From assembly GCF_000151205.2 (NCBI RefSeq), contig NC_016051.1, positions 1,488,001 to 1,552,000 of the forward strand: a stretch of DNA of 64,000 bases, in the 5' to 3' direction. The notes beneath the pieces were generated by a model. That model saw only the letters and a program-made list of their open reading frames with translations. It was not told the origin of the DNA and did not search any database. Each line of letters begins with the position of its first letter. Within the stretch, counting starts at the first letter, position 1. The stretch is from Thermococcus sp. AM4 (lineage in GTDB: Archaea; Methanobacteriota_B; Thermococci; Thermococcales; Thermococcaceae). Positions 13,797 to 22,856 of this stretch are shown one piece after another. The translations under genes and the position numbers were made by a program.

Positions 13797-13857
13797 CACT
13801 GAATAGTTGGGCGGCAACGTATTAAACCTTTGCCATCTACGGTCCAGGGGTGCGGAA

Positions 13858-14715
13858 ATGGAGGAGATCTACTACCTGACCTCCAGGGAGGCGAGACTCC
13901 TGCTGACCTCCAGGAACTCGGTCAGGGTAAACCTCGATCTGCGAAAGACCGGCAGAACGTGGGAGGTGAAGAGGGAAGGGGACGAGTTCGTCTTCCCCGA
14001 CGGAACGAGGGTTTCCAGAGAGATCATAGAGAGGATCGCGAGGGACGCGGAGAACGTCTACTTCATCAGGAAAGGTGTCTACAAGGCGGCCATCGCCGGA
14101 GAGCACTTCTACAAGCTCGTGCCGACGATTCCGCCGACGATTGAGATAAACGGCATCAGGATGCACAGGACGAAGGGGGTAAACCCGCTCCAGGACACGA
14201 GGAACAAGGTGAACGCGGTTAAGCCGAAGGAGGGCGAGACGGTCTTAGACACCTGCATGGGGCTCGGCTACACGGCAATAGAGGCCTCGAAGAGGGGGGC
14301 CTACGTAATAACGATCGAGAAGGACAAAAACGTCATCGAGCTTGCCAGGATAAACCCCTGGAGCAGGGAGCTCTTCACGGGCGGTAGAATCCAGGTGATC
14401 CACGGCGACGCCTTCGAGGTCGTGAAGCGCTTTAAGGACGAGAGCTTCGATGTCGTAATCCACGATCCGCCGCGCTTTTCCTTAGCCGGCCAGCTCTACT
14501 CGGAGGAGTTCTACCGCGAGCTTTTCAGGGTTCTAAAGCCCGGAGGGAGGCTCTTCCATTACGTCGGCAATCCAGGGAAGAAATACCGCAGAAAGGACCT
14601 CCAGAAGGGTGTCATGGAGCGGTTGAGGAGGGCGGGCTTCGTCGGCGTTAAAAGGGTCGAAGAGGCGCTTGGAGTCGTTGCGAGAAAGCCGGAAAACAAA
14701 GGAGGGAAGAACTAA
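13858..14715 (+). CDS. predicted class I SAM-dependent methyltransferase
   Basis: This 285-residue protein has a roughly 100-residue N-terminal domain (FVFPDGTRVSREIIERIA, then PPTIEINGIRMHRT) and a C-terminal Rossmann methyltransferase. Motif I is TVLDTCMGLGYTAIEA, followed by the acidic ribose-binding end of strand 2 in VITIEKDK. Motif IV is VIHDPPRFSLAGQLY, similar to the DPPY motif of amino-methylating enzymes, and LKPGGRLFHYVG follows. An RNA target is likely but not shown. ATG 13858 follows GGGGTG by six bases; the longer frame from 13807 would overlap the divergent KaiC-like promoter. It overlaps the next convergent gene by four bases. Confidence 0.85.
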   Translation: MEEIYYLTSREARLLLTSRNSVRVNLDLRKTGRTWEVKREGDEFVFPDGTRVSREIIERIARDAENVYFIRKGVYKAAIAGEHFYKLVPTIPPTIEINGIRMHRTKGVNPLQDTRNKVNAVKPKEGETVLDTCMGLGYTAIEASKRGAYVITIEKDKNVIELARINPWSRELFTGGRIQVIHGDAFEVVKRFKDESFDVVIHDPPRFSLAGQLYSEEFYRELFRVLKPGGRLFHYVGNPGKKYRRKDLQKGVMERLRRAGFVGVKRVEEALGVVARKPENKGGKN

Positions 14716-16115
14716 ATCCCTCCGACCTCCTCCAGCTCCTCAAAGGCTTCGAGGTTCGTGTAGTAGTCCATGAGCTGGGCTATCTCCTTCCTCAGCTTGA
14801 AGCTCTTCGCTATCGCTATGCCAAAGCCTATTATCGAGGGCCATATCAGGAGCAGGAGGAGCTTTGCATCGCCTATCGGGATCGGCCTCGGTTCGGTGAA
14901 GCGGTTGAAGTTCCAGATCATGAAGGCTATCATCAGCCAGGCTGTGGAGAAGTTCGTCAAGCCGCTGCCGCTCTCGCCGAGCTTGAAGCCCGGAATGACG
15001 TCCTTTGTGATCGGAGGCAGCAGATTGCTCCCCATGAAGCCGAGCTGGTCCTCGAAGACGTGCAGCCACTGGCCGATCATCGAGGCCAAAGCCAAGTCAG
15101 TGGCGTGGTTGTAGCCAAGTAACTTGAATATCGCGTAGACAACTGCACCTATTATGATGCCCATCGTGAGCGAGTGGCTGAAGCCGTGGTGCCAGGGCAG
15201 GAAACGGTCCTTGACGACCGTTTTACCGTTGAACTTTGCCCTCCTGAAGGCTATCTCCGGGCCGGAGAAGGAATCCACGCGGGTTGGCTTCGGATAGGTC
15301 TTGATGAAGGGAACGTTCACCTTCGCTATTCCGTAGCGCCTGTACTCGGGCGGCTTGTCCGTTATCGCCACGCCACCGGGCGTTACTATCGGCCCCATCT
15401 CAACGCGAACTTCCCTCTTCGGCGGATCGAGATGAACGAAGAACTGCCTGTAAACGTCCCCCGGAAGGCGGATGTTGTGGATCTTGACTATCCTCTCGCC
15501 CCCGTGGTAGGCCTCCTCTATTGCTCTGGCTATTGTCTCGGCTATGCCCTGTGGGTGAGGGGCGTCGCTGACGACGAAGCGGAGCTCGTTATCGACCTCG
15601 TCCACGTCAACGTAGCCGAAGACGAGGATCTCCTTGCCCTCCTCGATCTGACCGAACTCCTCCTCGAAGAACTTGTAGTCGTCCCCAACGGCCTCGACGG
15701 TTATCCTTCCGGTTCCGTCGTTGAGGACGAAGACGATGCTGTTGTACTCCTCCTCAACGGTCCTCTGCTCGCCGTTCTCGTCGAGGATTGTGTAGGTAAC
15801 GGTTCCGGAACCCCTCGTCAGTATCTCCTCGACCTTTCCCTCGATGGCGAAGAACTGGTAGCGGTTCTTCTCGCTCAGCTCCTTTATCTTCACGAGCTTC
15901 GGAGCGTAGTGCTTCTTCTCGTCCCAGGGAGCGGGATCGATCTCGTAGTCCCTCCTGGCGAAGAACTTCCCGAACTTGAAATCGACGAAGTCCGGGAAGT
16001 AGGCGGCGGCAGCCGCTATTACCGGGAGCAGGATCCCCATCCTGAGGTCGGACACCAGCGAGGGGAAGAAGGTCGCAGCGGCGAGACCAGAGATGTAGTG
16101 GGTAAAGCCCCTCAT
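14712..16115 (-). CDS. YdjM-like (DUF457) predicted membrane-bound metal-dependent hydrolase with an inserted OB-fold region
   Basis: This 467-residue protein begins RGFTHYISGLAAATFFPS and has the later pair WHHGFSHSLTMG and GQWLHVFED, which are His/Asp motifs of the YdjM-type predicted metal-dependent membrane hydrolases. Between the first helix pair and these motifs lies a soluble insertion (about residues 65-215) with OB-fold features: YQFFAIEGKVEEILTRG, SIVFVLNDGTGRITVEAVGD, GKEILVFGYVDV. The C-terminus has three or four membrane helices. ATG 16115 lies six bases after the stop of the permease gene. It is the last gene of the OB-fold cluster. Substrate unknown. Confidence 0.8.
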   Translation of the reverse strand: MRGFTHYISGLAAATFFPSLVSDLRMGILLPVIAAAAAYFPDFVDFKFGKFFARRDYEIDPAPWDEKKHYAPKLVKIKELSEKNRYQFFAIEGKVEEILTRGSGTVTYTILDENGEQRTVEEEYNSIVFVLNDGTGRITVEAVGDDYKFFEEEFGQIEEGKEILVFGYVDVDEVDNELRFVVSDAPHPQGIAETIARAIEEAYHGGERIVKIHNIRLPGDVYRQFFVHLDPPKREVRVEMGPIVTPGGVAITDKPPEYRRYGIAKVNVPFIKTYPKPTRVDSFSGPEIAFRRAKFNGKTVVKDRFLPWHHGFSHSLTMGIIIGAVVYAIFKLLGYNHATDLALASMIGQWLHVFEDQLGFMGSNLLPPITKDVIPGFKLGESGSGLTNFSTAWLMIAFMIWNFNRFTEPRPIPIGDAKLLLLLIWPSIIGFGIAIAKSFKLRKEIAQLMDYYTNLEAFEELEEVGGI

Positions 16116-16121
16116 TCCGCA

Positions 16122-17453
16122 TCACCCCAGACCAAGGAGATGCATGAACTCGCCGGTGTGCCCGGTCATGCTTATCAGCACGGGCAGGACGAGGCCGCCG
16201 AGGCAGTAGCTCCTCCTCGTGTTGAAGGCAGCCGCCATCATGCCTATGGCAGTCGAGACGAAGAGGACAAGCACACCCATCGGGCCGGTGAGGACGTAGG
16301 AGATCACTATGAGAACCACCGCAACGACGTAGGAGAGCTTTCTGATGTGGACCACCGTGAAGCTCTTAGCTATGAGCCTGGAGAGGTAGTAGGTGAACAC
16401 GAAGCTTATCCCCGCGCTGAGCAGGATGACGCCTATGGCCGCGAGGTACTCGGCGTAGCTCTTCGGCGTGTAGACCGAGCTCACCAGCCACGCCGCCGCC
16501 CCCCTCGTCAGCCTGAGGTTCGGCAGGAAGAGGAGCGTGAAGGCGCCAACGTAGTAGATCACCCTGTTGACGCCCTGGCTGATGATGAAGGCGTCATCAC
16601 CGCGCTGGCTGGTTATGTGGCCCGCTATGAGAGCCCCCATACCTCCAGTGATTATCGGGTAAACGGCCGCTATCGTGCCTCCTAAGGCCCCTCCAAAGCT
16701 CGCCTTGAGGGTGTTGTAAACGCTGCTCTCGACCTTGTCGTCGACCTTCTGCGGGAGCATCGGCGGGTTGGAGAGGATGTTGAGGAGAACCCACGACATT
16801 CCGAAGAAGCCTATGAACATCGGCGTTAAGCGGGTGTAGGCGCTGGTTGAGGGAAGCAGATTGGTGTTCATGACCGCGAAGCCGAGGACGCCCGAGAGGA
16901 AGAACACCAGCATTCCGCCGAGTATCTGCCTCCAAGCTAACCAGAGTCTCTGGAGGGGCGTTTTACCGCGGTCGCCCTCCTTGGGCCACTCGCTCATGAA
17001 CATGAAGACCACTATGGCGGTGAGGAAGTAGGTTATGTAGGGGCTGGTCGCCTGGTAGATCGGCGGGAGGACCTTGGGGAAGATGAAGAGGGCGCTGAGC
17101 ACGAGTATCAGCGTCCCGGCAACCGCGCCAATTAGGTATAGCAGCACGGCCTCGTGTCCCCTGCCGAGAAGCAGGTAGCGCTGGGTTGGGAAGAGGAGGA
17201 AGACCGCGCTCTCGTCGGCGACGCTGAAGTAGACGCTCGATATCGCGCTCACGTAGGCGTAGGCGACTATCGCGCCGATCGCGAAGAACGGAAAGGCCTG
17301 AACCGGCATCAGCTCGCCGACGCCGAAGACCGCAACGAGTAGGGCCATGATGTTGAAGATGTGAAAGCCGGGGATCCAGGAGATGACCGCCCCAAAGAGC
17401 ACCCCGGCGAGCGACCAGACCAGGATCTCGGAGAGGGGAACCATGGGCATCAC
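16122..17453 (-). CDS. TctA-like (tripartite tricarboxylate transporter family) archaeal membrane protein
   Basis: This 443-residue protein has about ten to twelve hydrophobic helices. The N-terminal GVLFGAVISWIPGFHIFN and the internal repeat-like GGALGGTIAAVYPIITGGMGA match the TctA signature spread over two inverted halves. Bacterial TctA works with TctB and a periplasmic binding protein; here the neighbours are OB-fold proteins instead, so the transported substance may differ. The start (MMPMVPLSE) is one to three codons uncertain; an ATG after GGTGAT is likely. It follows the OB-fold anchor gene by one base and precedes the YdjM-like gene by six bases. Confidence 0.82.
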   Translation of the reverse strand: MMPMVPLSEILVWSLAGVLFGAVISWIPGFHIFNIMALLVAVFGVGELMPVQAFPFFAIGAIVAYAYVSAISSVYFSVADESAVFLLFPTQRYLLLGRGHEAVLLYLIGAVAGTLILVLSALFIFPKVLPPIYQATSPYITYFLTAIVVFMFMSEWPKEGDRGKTPLQRLWLAWRQILGGMLVFFLSGVLGFAVMNTNLLPSTSAYTRLTPMFIGFFGMSWVLLNILSNPPMLPQKVDDKVESSVYNTLKASFGGALGGTIAAVYPIITGGMGALIAGHITSQRGDDAFIISQGVNRVIYYVGAFTLLFLPNLRLTRGAAAWLVSSVYTPKSYAEYLAAIGVILLSAGISFVFTYYLSRLIAKSFTVVHIRKLSYVVAVVLIVISYVLTGPMGVLVLFVSTAIGMMAAAFNTRRSYCLGGLVLPVLISMTGHTGEFMHLLGLG

Positions 17454-17454
17454 C

Positions 17455-19401
17455 TCACTCCTTGATCACCGCGTCTCCCCTGTATGGAACGACCTCAAAG
17501 GTTCCCCTATACTCCGTAACGTAGCCGCCGATCTTCACGGTGTCCCCCTCGCTGAAGGTCTTGTCGCCAAGAACGCTCTTTGGAATGAAGACGACGAGCT
17601 CGCCGCTTCCGTCGTCTATCGTGAGCTTGACGAAGAAACTCCCCGTGTAGACGCTCTTAACCGTTCCCTGAACGACGACGGTCTTTCCGAGCATGTCCTT
17701 GGAAACCTTCCCGGTCTCGACCAGGGGTGAGGCAACGGCCTTGACGACGTCAATCGAAACGACCTTGGAATCGTCGGCGTTGTAGGTTATCTCGAGCTCG
17801 CTTCCAGTTCCGGCCTTGAGCGGGTTGGGTATCATGTCGCGCGGAACCGTGAGGTTCGCCTTTCCGGTGTCGTCGGAGACCTCAATGAGGTAGTTCGGCT
17901 TGGAGTAGTAAACGGCCTCCCACTTCACCTTCAGCTTAACGGTGCCGCTTGCAGAGGAGAGTTCGGAGAGTGTTATCGTTCCGTTTCCGCCCTGGCCCTG
18001 GTTGGGGGTCGTAGTTTCGGTCGTTCCGCCGATTGGCTTTCCGTAGGCGACTATGGCGTCAGGGGTGTAGGGTATGACCTCGAGCGTTCCCCTGTACTCG
18101 TCGAGGTAGCCGGCGACCTTGACGCCGAGTCCGGCCTTGAGCTGGCCCTTCACGTTCTCGTCGAGCTCCTTGACAACGGATCCCGGAATGAAGACGGCTA
18201 TCTCGCCTGTTCCATCGCTGATGACGAGCTTGAGGTTCGAGCCAACGTTGGCAGTGCTCACCACGTTGCCCTCCACAACCACTATCCTTCCGAGCATGTC
18301 GGCGGAGAGGTCCTTGATCTTGCTCAGCTCGGGCCTGACCGGGTTGATAACCTCGAACTTCGAGACCTTGAGCGTGCCGTTGTCGCCAACGAGGCCAATG
18401 GCCTTGATCCTCGATCCTGAACCGGCCTGGAACGGGTTTATCTCGGCCAGCACGTCCCTTGAGGTGTACAGAACGGCCGAAACGCCTCCGTCGCTGACGG
18501 TGACGAGGTATTGCCCGGACTTGTAGGTTATCTTCTCGAGCGTGGCCTCGACCGAAACGGTCTCCCCGACGTGGTCCTTGAGCTCGTTCAGCGAAACCTG
18601 CGGAACCTGCTGGGCTCCCATCACCCTGAAGTCCTTAAGATCCCTCACGACGATCTCGGGCGAGCTGCCCTTGTAGAGGTAAACCACTCCCGCTGCCTTG
18701 ACCTGATCGCCGAGGGCAACCTCGGGGGCCTTTCCAACGACGAGGAGAACCTTGGGGATGAGAACGGTAACTTTGCCCGAGCCCGTGTCAACCTCCATCA
18801 GGATCCCGCTGCTGACGTTGTTGAGGGACGTAACGAGGCCCTCGGTGTAGACGTACTCGTTGGCCATCTTCTCGGTGAGGGTCGTTACCTTGGGCGGATT
18901 GCTGGAGTAGGCTTTGCTTATGAACTTAAGCCCATCCAGATACTGGAGCATTCCGTAGGTGTAGGTCTCCCTCACGCGGAGCTGGATTTCCGCCTCGATC
19001 CTGTCGCCGGGGAAGGGAACCTTCCCCTCCTCGATGAGCTTTTCCGCCAGCGGGGAATAAACCCTGATGTCGATCGAGCCCGTGCCATCGTTGACGGAGA
19101 AGGTAACGCTCAGCTTGCCGCCGGTTTCGGATACGTAGGGAACGCTCACAACGTTTCCTTCCACCCTAACGACGGCGTAGTTCATCAGGTAGTTGCCGTA
19201 GACGTCGCTTATCTTCGCCATCGGAGCCTGGGCGCCCTGGGCCGCTATGAGGATCAGGGCGACGCCGAGGACAGCTATGACGAGGGAAACGTACTTCAGC
19301 TTCGAGACGTCGATCTTCTTCTGCTCCTTGAGTCCGTGATAGTAAAGCTTCTTTTCCTCCTTTCTGGAGTCGGGATTTCCATTTGAGCCGTTTGAGGTCA
19401 C
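17455..19401 (-). CDS. membrane-anchored surface protein with about six OB-fold repeats
   Basis: This 648-residue protein has a short cytoplasmic start, one membrane helix (VSLVIAVLGVALILIAAQG, about residues 38-56) and a large outer region made of OB-fold units. They are recognisable by V.GNVVS..., DGTGEIAVFIP and GGYVTEYRGTFEVVPY patterns, about 90-100 residues each. A Thr-rich linker (GGTTETTTPNQGQGG) lies near residue 465. The GTG at 19401 is chosen because GGGGGTG lies five bases upstream. Units three to six match the four units of the lipoprotein encoded at 19508-20914. OB folds bind nucleic acid, sugars or proteins; the ligand is unknown. It is probably co-transcribed with the permease and the YdjM-like gene. 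Confidence 0.82.
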   Translation of the reverse strand: MTSNGSNGNPDSRKEEKKLYYHGLKEQKKIDVSKLKYVSLVIAVLGVALILIAAQGAQAPMAKISDVYGNYLMNYAVVRVEGNVVSVPYVSETGGKLSVTFSVNDGTGSIDIRVYSPLAEKLIEEGKVPFPGDRIEAEIQLRVRETYTYGMLQYLDGLKFISKAYSSNPPKVTTLTEKMANEYVYTEGLVTSLNNVSSGILMEVDTGSGKVTVLIPKVLLVVGKAPEVALGDQVKAAGVVYLYKGSSPEIVVRDLKDFRVMGAQQVPQVSLNELKDHVGETVSVEATLEKITYKSGQYLVTVSDGGVSAVLYTSRDVLAEINPFQAGSGSRIKAIGLVGDNGTLKVSKFEVINPVRPELSKIKDLSADMLGRIVVVEGNVVSTANVGSNLKLVISDGTGEIAVFIPGSVVKELDENVKGQLKAGLGVKVAGYLDEYRGTLEVIPYTPDAIVAYGKPIGGTTETTTPNQGQGGNGTITLSELSSASGTVKLKVKWEAVYYSKPNYLIEVSDDTGKANLTVPRDMIPNPLKAGTGSELEITYNADDSKVVSIDVVKAVASPLVETGKVSKDMLGKTVVVQGTVKSVYTGSFFVKLTIDDGSGELVVFIPKSVLGDKTFSEGDTVKIGGYVTEYRGTFEVVPYRGDAVIKE

Positions 19402-19507
19402 GCTAACACCCCCCAACTTTCGGGATTTCGGGACGTAGCAAGGGAGTAGAAGGGCCGGGCTTTTAACAGTTTCGTGTATAACCCTGACCAGCGAAAAAAT
19501 GAAAGGG

Positions 19508-20914
19508 TCAGGTCAGTATCTCGATGCCCTCGACGGAGTAGGGTATGATCTCTATCGTGCCCTTGTACTCCGTAACGTAGCCGCCGATCTCAACGGTGAC
19601 CCCGTTCTGGAGCTTTGACTTCACGTCCTCCGGCAGCTTGGAAGCGACTGAGGAAGGCACGAAGACGGTTATGTTGCCGCTGCCGTCAACGACGAGGAAC
19701 TTAAGGTTCGCGCCGAGGGTCTTGAAGTCCGAAACGGTTCCCTGAACGACGACGGTCTTTCCGAGGAGTTCTGTGGTAACGTTGGCCGTGCTGAGGAGCG
19801 GCGACGGCTGCGGGCTGACGACGGTGAGGTTGAGAACCTTCATCGAGGAGGCATCGACTACCAGGTGGAGCACGCTTCCCGTTCCGGCCTTTACAGGGTT
19901 CGGGAGGAGCTCCCTCTCCGCCGTGAGGTTCGCCTTCCCGGTGTCGTCGGAAACTTCAATGAGGTAGTTCGGCTTGGAGTAGTAGAGCCTGACCCAGGTG
20001 GCGTTGAGCTGAACCGTGCCGCTGGCCGAGGAGAGGCCGGAAACCGTAACCCACTGGACTTCAGTCTGGGTGGTCGTCGTGGTCTGCTGAGAGGTTGTTG
20101 TCGTTGTGGTTGTCGTCTCTATCTCGAGGGGCTTTCCGTAGGCAACTATTCCCTCTGGAACGTACGGGATAACCTCAAGTGTCCCCTTGTACTCGTCGAT
20201 GTAGCCGCCTATCTTAACGCCGAGGCCCTCCTTCAGGCCGGAGAGGGTCTCGTTTGAGAGCTCCTTGACAACGGATCCCGGAATGAAGATGGCTATCTCA
20301 CCGGTTCCGTCGGTGACGGTCAGCTTGAGGTTTGAGCCTATCTTCTTCGTGCTGACGATGTTGCCCTCGATGACGACGATCTTCCCGAGCATGCCGGCGG
20401 AGAGGTCCTTGATCTTGCTGATCGTTGGGGCCTTCTTCTCCACGACCTCGATTTCACCGGCCGAGAGCTGCTCCCGGGACTTCACCTCGCCGGTAACGAG
20501 GATCTTTGAGCCAACGCCGACCTCGAGCGGGTTGAGAACGGACAGGAGCTCACGCTTCGCCGTGACGTTTACCTTTGCCCCGTTTTCGCCGATCGATATA
20601 ACGTAGACGTGGTTCGCTGAGTCGTAGGAGAGGCCGAGGAGAAGGCCCTCAACGCTGACGTTCTTTCCGACGTAGTTTCCTATTTCACCTATCGGTACCC
20701 TCGGAACGGAGGGCGTTGAGGTTGTGGTTGTGGTCTGCTGAGACGTCGTTGTGGTTGTTGTAGTTGTCGGGGCGGAGGAAGTGCTCGTTGTCTGGGCCTG
20801 AGAGCTGGTCGATGAGCTCGTTGGAGTGCCCTCTTTGGAGCCGCCCCCGATACAGCCGGCGGAGATCACGACCAGGCCTATCAGGAGCAGGGCTAAAGCA
20901 AACTTTGCCCTCAT
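19508..20914 (-). CDS. lipoprotein with four OB-fold repeats and two Thr-rich linkers
   Basis: This 468-residue protein starts with a lipoprotein signal ending at lipobox SAGC (Cys about residue 21), followed by a Ser/Thr-rich spacer to about residue 68, likely O-glycosylated and spanning the S-layer. Two OB-fold units follow (VPIGEIGNYVGKNVSVEG, ISKIKDLSAGMLGKIVVIEG), then a second Thr-rich linker near residue 270, then two more units. The second unit is nearly the same as one in the 17455-19401 protein. It lies about 100 bases before that gene, same strand, so the two are probably one system, with a separate promoter possible. Confidence 0.85.
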   Translation of the reverse strand: MRAKFALALLLIGLVVISAGCIGGGSKEGTPTSSSTSSQAQTTSTSSAPTTTTTTTTSQQTTTTTSTPSVPRVPIGEIGNYVGKNVSVEGLLLGLSYDSANHVYVISIGENGAKVNVTAKRELLSVLNPLEVGVGSKILVTGEVKSREQLSAGEIEVVEKKAPTISKIKDLSAGMLGKIVVIEGNIVSTKKIGSNLKLTVTDGTGEIAIFIPGSVVKELSNETLSGLKEGLGVKIGGYIDEYKGTLEVIPYVPEGIVAYGKPLEIETTTTTTTTSQQTTTTTQTEVQWVTVSGLSSASGTVQLNATWVRLYYSKPNYLIEVSDDTGKANLTAERELLPNPVKAGTGSVLHLVVDASSMKVLNLTVVSPQPSPLLSTANVTTELLGKTVVVQGTVSDFKTLGANLKFLVVDGSGNITVFVPSSVASKLPEDVKSKLQNGVTVEIGGYVTEYKGTIEIIPYSVEGIEILT

Positions 20915-20984: not shown

Positions 20985-22856
20985 TCACTCCTTCCCGGAC
21001 TTCAGTATCTTCTCGACGTCGAAGCCCTCCTCGTACTTTCTAAGCTTCCTCTCGAAGAACTCGATGAAGAGCTTGTAGCGCTTCGAGCGGTGCTTCGGGC
21101 TTCCGCGGATGCTGTGGCCGTGCGGGCCCCTCTTGAAGACAGCTATGTAGGCCTCCTTGCCGAGGTCCTTGAGCACGTTGTAGAACATCAGGCTCTGGTC
21201 GAGCGGACAGCGGTAGTCCTCGAGCGAGTGTATAAGCAGTATCGGGGCCTTCACGTTCTTCGCGTAGAACAGCGGGCTGAGCTTCCGGTAGTTCTCGTTT
21301 TCGAGTGGGTTCGGGCCGATGACCTCGACGTCGAACCAGAGGCCGATGTCCGAGAAGGCATAACTTGTCAGCCAGTAGCTTATGCCGTTCTCGCTGATTC
21401 CGGCCTTGAAGAGGTCGCTCTGCGTTAGCGCCCAGTTGGTCATGAATCCGCCGTAGCTTATTCCCGTTATGCCAACCCTCTCCCTGTCGGCCTGAGGCTC
21501 GAGCTTGAAGAACTCCTCTATTCCTGCCATTATGTCCTCGAAGTCCTCCAGGCCGGTTCTCTGGAGGACGCGGAGCGCGAAGTCTTCGCTGTAGCCGTCG
21601 CTGCCGCGCGGGTTGACGTAGACAACGTAGTAGCCCTTGTTCGCCATCAGCTGCATCTCGTAGACGAAGCGGTGGCCGTACATTCCCTTCGGCCCGCCGT
21701 GGACGGAGACTATCACAGGGGCCTTCTCGTCCTCCTTGAGCTCCGGTTTGAGGTACCAGCCGTCTATCTCAAGGTCCTTGCTCCCGAACCTGAAGTGCCT
21801 CGGCTCGAAAGTCTTGAGCTTCCTGAATATTGGCCCGTTGTAGTCGGTGACCTGCTTGAGCTCGCCGTCGTAGAGGTAGAGCTCGCCTATCCTCGTTGCC
21901 GTCATTATGAGGAGCAGTGCCTTTCCGTTGCTGGCATCCAAGCCGTAAATCCAGTGGTCGCCAACGACGACCCTCTCAGCTTTACCGTCCCAGAGCCAGA
22001 GGTGAACGCTGCCAGCGTCTGGCGTCAGGAAGTAGACCTTGCCTTCCGTTAGCTTCGCACCCCAGACGTCGAGCGGGCCCTCGTAGACGGGCTTGAGCTC
22101 GCCGTCGTAGATGTAAAGCCAGTCGTGCTCGCTCATGAACTTCTTTTCCCTCTTGCCGCTCAGGAGGATAGCTTTTCCGTCGGAATCAACGGCCCTGAGG
22201 GAAACGCGCTCGAAGAGCTTCTCCTCGTTTCCGTCCTTCCAGAGGTAGATGTCGTAGAACTTGAAGAGGGCCGGCTTGCCGTCCTCGCGGTGCGGGACGT
22301 TGATGAGTATTCCATCCCCGTGCCAGAGGCCGGAGCTAAAGCGGGGCTTCTCGAACTCTTCTATAACCTCTTCGGCCTCGGTGTCGAGGACCCAGAAGGT
22401 CGTCTTCTCGCCGTCGAGGAAGCCCATACTGTCGAACCAGAAGGGAACGTCGTCGTCGAAGACGAAGTCGTCATCGTCGTGCCTCTTGAAGCCGACCACC
22501 AGAAGCCTCCTTGAGTCGTCGTTCCACTGGAGGGAGCGAATGTTCTTGGCCGAGAGAACCTTCTTAGCCGAGAGAGTCTCAAGCTCGGCAACCCAGACCT
22601 CTGTTTCCTTCTTCTCCTCGTTGGGCCTCGTGAAGGCGAGCTTTCTGCCGTCCGGCGAGAGTCTCGGCATGGAGGCGTTCTCGATGAAGCGCTTTGAGCC
22701 GGTCTCAAGGTCCTCAACGACTACAGTGCTCTCGTACCTGTTGTCCTTCATGTTCACCTTGGTCAGGGTGTAGGCTACTTTCGAGCCTTCGATCCTCGGG
22801 TCGTTCACGTAGGCGAACCGAGAAAAGGTCTTCTCGTTCCATTCGATACCGCTCAT
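20985..22856 (-). CDS. acylaminoacyl-peptidase-like serine peptidase (family S9)
   Basis: This 623-residue prolyl oligopeptidase-family enzyme has an N-terminal beta-propeller (about residues 1-360) and a C-terminal alpha/beta hydrolase. The catalytic triad can be seen: Ser about residue 467 in GITGISYGGFM, Asp in HSLEDYRCP (about 545) and His in GPHGHSI (about 579). VHGGPKGMYG forms the oxyanion region. It removes N-acylated residues or short peptides in the cytoplasm; no signal peptide is seen. ATG 22856 is preceded by GGTGAT, and a TATA box CTTATATACC lies at about 22889-22898 on the minus strand. It stands alone. Confidence 0.92.
   Translation of the reverse strand: MSGIEWNEKTFSRFAYVNDPRIEGSKVAYTLTKVNMKDNRYESTVVVEDLETGSKRFIENASMPRLSPDGRKLAFTRPNEEKKETEVWVAELETLSAKKVLSAKNIRSLQWNDDSRRLLVVGFKRHDDDDFVFDDDVPFWFDSMGFLDGEKTTFWVLDTEAEEVIEEFEKPRFSSGLWHGDGILINVPHREDGKPALFKFYDIYLWKDGNEEKLFERVSLRAVDSDGKAILLSGKREKKFMSEHDWLYIYDGELKPVYEGPLDVWGAKLTEGKVYFLTPDAGSVHLWLWDGKAERVVVGDHWIYGLDASNGKALLLIMTATRIGELYLYDGELKQVTDYNGPIFRKLKTFEPRHFRFGSKDLEIDGWYLKPELKEDEKAPVIVSVHGGPKGMYGHRFVYEMQLMANKGYYVVYVNPRGSDGYSEDFALRVLQRTGLEDFEDIMAGIEEFFKLEPQADRERVGITGISYGGFMTNWALTQSDLFKAGISENGISYWLTSYAFSDIGLWFDVEVIGPNPLENENYRKLSPLFYAKNVKAPILLIHSLEDYRCPLDQSLMFYNVLKDLGKEAYIAVFKRGPHGHSIRGSPKHRSKRYKLFIEFFERKLRKYEEGFDVEKILKSGKE

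Follow-up and report, generated by a model that had tools for sequence, protein, structure and literature searches.

The 64-kb stretch of the Thermococcus sp. AM4 genome analyzed here (the window) contains four genes on the minus strand that encode, in the order of transcription, an OB-fold lipoprotein, an OB-fold protein with one membrane helix, a TctA-like membrane protein, and a YdjM-like membrane protein. The last three of them constitute a conserved archaeal cell-envelope gene set that is found in three phyla. A pair consisting of an OB protein and a TctA-like protein has been known since 2023; the branch described here, designated system B, in which TctA comes with OB domains arrayed in tandem and a putative hydrolase, appears to be new. 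We tentatively interpret this cassette as a paralogous variant of the archaeal OB/TctA pair, in which an outer OB array, a path through TctA, and a metal-dependent hydrolase at the inner face of the membrane would take up a chain-like ligand, possibly DNA, and cut it. We regard this interpretation as quite possible, if short of probable. The main features of the locus (lengths in amino acids, aa) are:

19508..20914, minus strand: lipoprotein with Thr-rich linkers and four OB units (468 aa, PF01336)
20129..20428, minus strand: OB unit l_b1, residues 163-262 of the lipoprotein (structure model)
17455..19416, minus strand: OB protein anchored by one N-terminal membrane helix, with six extracellular OB units (653 aa, PF01336)
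16122..17453, minus strand: TctA-like polytopic membrane protein, clade B (443 aa, PF01970)
14712..16115, minus strand: YdjM-like membrane protein, predicted metal-dependent hydrolase (467 aa, PF04307)
15558..15887, minus strand: very acidic OB insertion in the YdjM-like protein, residues about 77-186 (weak PF01336 match)

All four genes were found on one strand where a preliminary description of this DNA had placed them, each with Pfam support. The gaps that it gave for the last three genes are exact: one base between the genes of the OB membrane protein and TctA, and six bases between those of TctA and YdjM. These three genes are adjacent in all 21 Thermococcus loci compared (the window's own, L032-L050, and L141). 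System B is present in 27 of the 50 Thermococcus genomes that are at least 90% complete, and the profile search agrees with this count. In eight Thermococcus genomes without B, the methyltransferase-like and acylpeptide-hydrolase-like genes that flank the cassette directly adjoin each other. Thus, the set behaves as an all-or-none cassette: genomes gain or lose it whole, at a single site. The borders of the cassette and the spacer behind the lipoprotein gene are:

20985..22856, minus strand: gene that we take, from its sequence, to be acylpeptide-hydrolase-like; left border of the cassette in the order of transcription, outside the system
13807..14715, plus strand: methyltransferase-like gene, the other border, convergent with the YdjM gene, outside the system
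19417..19507, minus strand: spacer between the lipoprotein and OB membrane protein genes, with a T-run at 19494-19499 and TATA-like stretches (by eye)

To look beyond Thermococcus, the TctA-B profile was searched in 396 relatives, in 293 genomes of the phylum of genome G176, and in 28 genomes of the phylum of G133. Full-length B-type matches had E-values of 1e-96 or better, and all other TctA proteins in the phylum of G176 scored 1e-50 or weaker. System B was identified in seven genomes of the latter phylum (families f52, f130, and f115) and in four genomes of family f32 (Hadesarchaea), so that, with Thermococcus, it spans three archaeal phyla. In the two other phyla, the place of the single OB membrane protein is taken by two proteins that each combine a zinc ribbon, one helix, and an OB domain, and the gene order is an optional large secreted protein, a zinc-ribbon/helix/OB protein of about 270-320 aa, a second one of about 360-495 aa, TctA-B, and YdjM. 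In f52 and f130, OB and PKD domains are part of the large secreted protein; the Hadesarchaeal operons were seen without such a neighbor. The YdjM gene adjoins in nine of the 11 loci of these two phyla. TctA-B proteins are as low as 33-36% identical across phyla. The preliminary description had proposed an envelope system, and this conserved synteny, with the order OB protein, TctA, YdjM retained both within the genus and over three phyla, supports the proposal. In f130, a zinc-ribbon/BNR-repeat protein of about 1375 aa is encoded on the opposite strand and overlaps the end of the TctA-B gene (L307 1790-5920; L308 1858-5976).

The TctA-like protein of the window matches PF01970 over nearly the whole profile (E=2.1e-43). 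A search of 61 genomes revealed two TctA forms, the window form being B and the other one A. The B proteins of 19 other Thermococcus members are 80-96% identical to the window protein; the host's second TctA, an A form of 371 aa, is 25% identical to it. A tree built from 69 TctA proteins sets B apart as one side of a single branch with a Shimodaira-Hasegawa-like approximate likelihood ratio test (SH-aLRT) value of 100 and a stem of 1.07. The A side contains proteins from Methanoculleus and from a family that is presumably that of Methanococcus (f25), whose members L254-L256 represent the Methanococcus maripaludis proteins in the tree as same-family relatives.

In M. maripaludis, deletion of MMJJ_13020, an OB protein with one helix, or of the TctA-like MMJJ_13030 abolishes natural transformation, as does deletion of the TctA homolog in Methanoculleus thermophilus (PMC10133366). 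In naturally competent archaea, neither a channel for DNA uptake nor a ComEC homolog has been identified, and the TctA-like protein is the only membrane transporter that emerged from the one genetic screen (PMC10133366). Because the tree sets B and the relatives of the tested type on opposite sides, TctA-B is, judging from its sequence, a paralog of the transformation-tested proteins and not the same thing. As in the M. maripaludis pair, the TctA of the window is directly preceded by an OB protein with one helix, and neither of the two sets includes TctB or TctC. The two differ in that the window has about ten OB units rather than one OB domain, in that its TctA belongs to clade B whereas the Methanococcaceae relatives belong to clade A, and in that YdjM is not reported for the M. 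maripaludis pair.

The host itself has an A pair (L051 5498-7791), in which the gene of a one-helix OB protein of about 398 aa overlaps the TctA gene. It shares this composition with the window set, and it has genes of RecA-fold ATPases upstream or downstream instead of YdjM. Most genomes with B also have an A-type TctA. TctA-like proteins were found by profile search in 199 of 257 archaeal genomes and in 102 of 145 genera, and the A type is widespread in archaea. Of 50 archaeal TctA loci (mostly one per family), 20 have, immediately upstream of TctA, the gene of an OB protein with one helix, as counted with an OB profile built partly from those loci; independently, Pfam detects PF01336 in 19 of 24 such partners. 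A weak TctA profile match to the plant protein At4g28210 (entry 8xku, E=3e-4) was dropped as a membrane-helix match.

Both OB proteins of the window match the PF01336 family, with E=2.9e-17 for the lipoprotein and E=3.9e-19 for the membrane protein. The lipobox of the former ends at Cys21 (by eye). The membrane helix of the latter is at about residues 42-62, and a GTG codon at 19401, behind GGGGGGTG, is likely a better start for it, giving 648 aa. According to the repeat map, most of both arrays is made up of two alternating types of OB unit, alpha and beta: the lipoprotein has the structure alpha-beta-alpha-beta, and in the membrane protein the same four units follow two N-terminal ones. Thus, the numbers of OB units originally given, four and six, are right. 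The beta unit l_b1 was modeled with the ten OB units of the window as the alignment, which yielded a predicted local distance difference test (pLDDT) score of 93.8 and a predicted template modeling (pTM) score of 0.83. In a Foldseek comparison with the PDB, the model matched OB domains at E-values of about 1e-5, with TMq of 0.63-0.81 among the matches listed; the closest of those listed were anticodon-binding OB domains of class II tRNA synthetases and an archaeal RPA domain. By this model, the OB-folds in the window proteins are real, and for the one unit modeled they are not unrelated beta folds, the outcome that would have spoken against the original assignment.

The lipoprotein had been described as a member of the system. 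Its OB array is real, but the protein is accessory and not part of the core, since it is encoded by a separate gene in only four of the 21 Thermococcus loci and most relatives carry all ten units on one protein. In most other Thermococcus members, a single membrane OB protein of about 990 aa contains approximately ten OB units by the repeat map, the sum of those in the two window proteins, which indicates that the array is split over two proteins in the window. The T-run at 19494-19499 follows the stop codon of the lipoprotein gene (by eye), so the lipoprotein may end its own transcript, apart from that of the OB membrane protein.

The YdjM-like protein matches PF04307 with E=3.4e-13 and 49.9 bits against the curated cut-off of 29, and the same domain was found in all 13 members of the alignment of B-associated YdjM proteins. 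In these 13 proteins from three phyla, seven His and Asp residues are invariant (H6, D42, D45, H309, H314, H352, and D356), a set that fits the predicted activity of a metal-dependent hydrolase. Hydrophobic segments are located around residues 9-40, 319-349, and 391-431, and one basic stretch (KFFARR) follows the first hydrophobic hairpin, while another (KSFKLRK) is C-terminal. Based on these segments and charges, the simplest topology would probably have both the invariant residues and the OB insertion face the cytosol. The protein shares with the YdjM family of inner membrane proteins the conserved His/Asp set by membrane helices. It differs in a long soluble stretch between the membrane parts, in the OB insertion of Thermococcus, and in its fixed position beside TctA-B in all but one family. 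A profile search against solved structures found no relative of YdjM. The spacing of the His and Asp residues recalls, in our view, a fold like that of nuclease P1 or zinc phospholipase C; one of the 13 members has a weak Pfam match to the latter (E=0.21).

The OB insertion of the YdjM-like protein had been counted with the other OB-folds as a part of the ligand-capturing surface. A weak match is indeed present: the window insertion scores E=2.6e-4 against PF01336, below the curated cut-off, and the best of the four scanned Thermococcus YdjM proteins that carry it scores E=2.3e-7. In the alignment of 13 proteins, the insertion is absent from YdjM proteins outside Thermococcus. Because it is restricted to this genus and is probably cytosolic, the insertion is unlikely to catch a ligand outside the cell. 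Accordingly, of the original proposal that the OB proteins, the permease, and the hydrolase process one ligand, the reality of the OB-folds and the conservation of the gene set stand; this insertion probably faces the cytosol, and the common ligand belongs to the model and not to the observations.

Comparison with known systems shows where the window set departs from them. The bacterial tripartite tricarboxylate transporter TctABC shares with it only the TctA family membrane protein. TctB (PF07331) and TctC (PF03401) had no match in the whole host genome, whereas control genomes do match, so that membership in TctABC was rejected and the initial observation that no TctB or binding-protein partner lies near TctA extends to the entire genome. 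ComEC works through the combined action of its outer OB fold (PF13567), its channel, and a metal-dependent nuclease (PMC12455585). By analogy, the window set may have a similar division of labor between an outer OB-fold, a membrane channel, and a metal-dependent hydrolase, with the difference that its parts are on separate polypeptides. The helix and the first OB unit of the OB membrane protein match PF13567 (DUF4131, the OB domain of ComEC) weakly, with E=1.8e-5 and 24.9 bits against the cut-off of 31.6. The ComEC channel PF03772 has no match in the whole host genome, while 10 control genomes match, and membership in ComEC was therefore rejected; a Pfam scan showed that the beta-lactamase-like nuclease PF00753 is absent from the four window proteins. 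No description of the OB-TctA-YdjM set was found in the literature searched, most subscription papers, including surveys of unknown archaeal genes, being outside the search. The suggestion of an undescribed system may hold for the set of three genes, but a related OB and TctA pair is known (PMC10133366).

The interpretation of system B as an importer and processor of a chain-like ligand is based on an operon that is kept in 21 of 21 loci of the genus and nine of 11 loci of other phyla and is present or absent as a unit, on the lack of TctB and TctC in the genome, and on the invariant His/Asp set of YdjM. The link to DNA uptake is suggested by the position of TctA-B as a sister branch to the A-type members needed for transformation. 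A nucleic acid ligand is suggested by the similarity of the OB units to nucleic-acid-binding OB domains, the closest among the matches listed, and a ComEC-like logic by the weak PF13567 match in a genome without the ComEC channel. In such a mechanism, the approximately ten outer OB units would hold a chain-like ligand near the membrane, TctA-B would pass it through the membrane without the help of TctB or TctC, and the YdjM-like enzyme at the cytosolic membrane face would cut the incoming ligand using bound metal; the whole would distribute a ComEC-like division of labor over separate proteins. The data establish the protein families, the conservation of the operon, the paralogy, the all-or-none presence of the cassette, and the invariant His/Asp set. 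We infer that the proteins act together, that transport is directed inward, that the ligand is a nucleic acid, and that the hydrolase acts on it. A narrower version, in which system B is an archaeal complex for DNA import and processing that follows the ComEC logic with an unrelated channel and enzyme (TctA as the channel and YdjM as a membrane nuclease at the inner face, combined with the outer OB array), seems to us quite unlikely. Several observations weigh against import of DNA. System B was found by profile search in none of the 25 genomes of other Thermococcaceae genera, among them presumably that of Pyrococcus yayanosii; a competent Pyrococcus thus probably lacks the set, which argues that B is not required for competence. 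In f130, TctA-B occurs without YdjM at the locus. By charge count, the acidity of the OB domains is mild and that of the YdjM insertion is strong, which is unfavorable for DNA or another nucleic acid as the ligand, and OB-folds as a large family also bind glycans and proteins. The role of YdjM as a nuclease is a prediction from sequence, and its single-sequence structure model is unusable (pLDDT 38).

The mild acidity of the OB domains also favors a solute importer, in which the OB array replaces TctC in binding an organic acid, a metal chelate, or a glycan, TctA-B imports this solute, and YdjM hydrolyzes it or its derivative. TctA is a transporter family for small organic acids, and system B is patchy and accessory in its distribution, as nutrient systems are. 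We nevertheless consider this role somewhat doubtful: TctB and TctC are nowhere in the genome, ten tandem OB units are better suited to a long ligand than to a small one, and the A-type relatives act in DNA uptake (PMC10133366). The need for the latter in uptake and not in export speaks also against the opposite direction of transport, where system B would build or remodel the envelope or export its components, with YdjM acting on a lipid-linked or phosphoester substrate, TctA-B flipping or exporting it, and OB/PKD surface adhesins receiving it. This scenario would account for the large secreted PKD/OB proteins that adjoin the operon in other phyla, the Thr-rich lipoprotein in the window, and the active-site residues of YdjM, placed at the membrane face by topology; it is unlikely, as no glycosyltransferase, sortase, or lipid gene is conserved with the set. 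That unrelated genes merely lie together by chance is extremely improbable. Each family is also found alone, and the OB partner is directly upstream of TctA in a minority of the archaeal loci, but the same order recurs in three phyla despite the low identity of TctA-B, and the genes are separated by 1-6 bases or overlap by 4 bases within an all-or-none cassette. Synteny and the clean cassette boundaries thus refute chance clustering of the OB protein, TctA, and YdjM; the lipoprotein is outside this verdict.

Some other observations concern the neighborhoods of TctA, mostly of the A type. Two RecA-fold (KaiC/RadA-like) ATPase genes are located by A-type TctA in Thermococcus (L051 7845-9334) and in family f52 (L267 737-2244; L312, L313, and L316). 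In five archaeal families (L116, L121, L122, L130, and L132), the A-type OB and TctA pair has, within four genes of its TctA, genes whose signal peptides are of class III (type IV pilin-like); this co-occurrence, given as a raw count, would be consistent with a connection to pilus-dependent DNA uptake. The scan of genome contigs with TctA comprised A-type loci only and no Methanococcus. The OB partner of A-type TctA in a Methanococcus-like genome (L255 5472-6077) has a C-terminal Cys/His motif, HINPNCPYGKKI ... CKWCSKN, and this tail resembles the metal-binding tails of secreted nucleases (both by eye). A small membrane protein that is YdjM-like by eye is encoded convergently to the A-type TctA of G309 (L314 3859-4500). 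Finally, four genomes have the TctA match in two pieces: in G196 and G194 these are two separate frames, and in G214 and G228 a single open frame holds both pieces with a gap between them. This could reflect decay of the gene, an insertion, or an error of assembly.

In summary, the TctA family has a second, well-separated branch, whose members are accompanied, in three archaeal phyla, by tandem OB domains and by a protein predicted to be a metal hydrolase. Both the A and B branches are present in G010, presumably the genetically tractable and competent T. kodakarensis KOD1. System B thereby provides a lead on how archaea may move large molecules such as DNA across the membrane.

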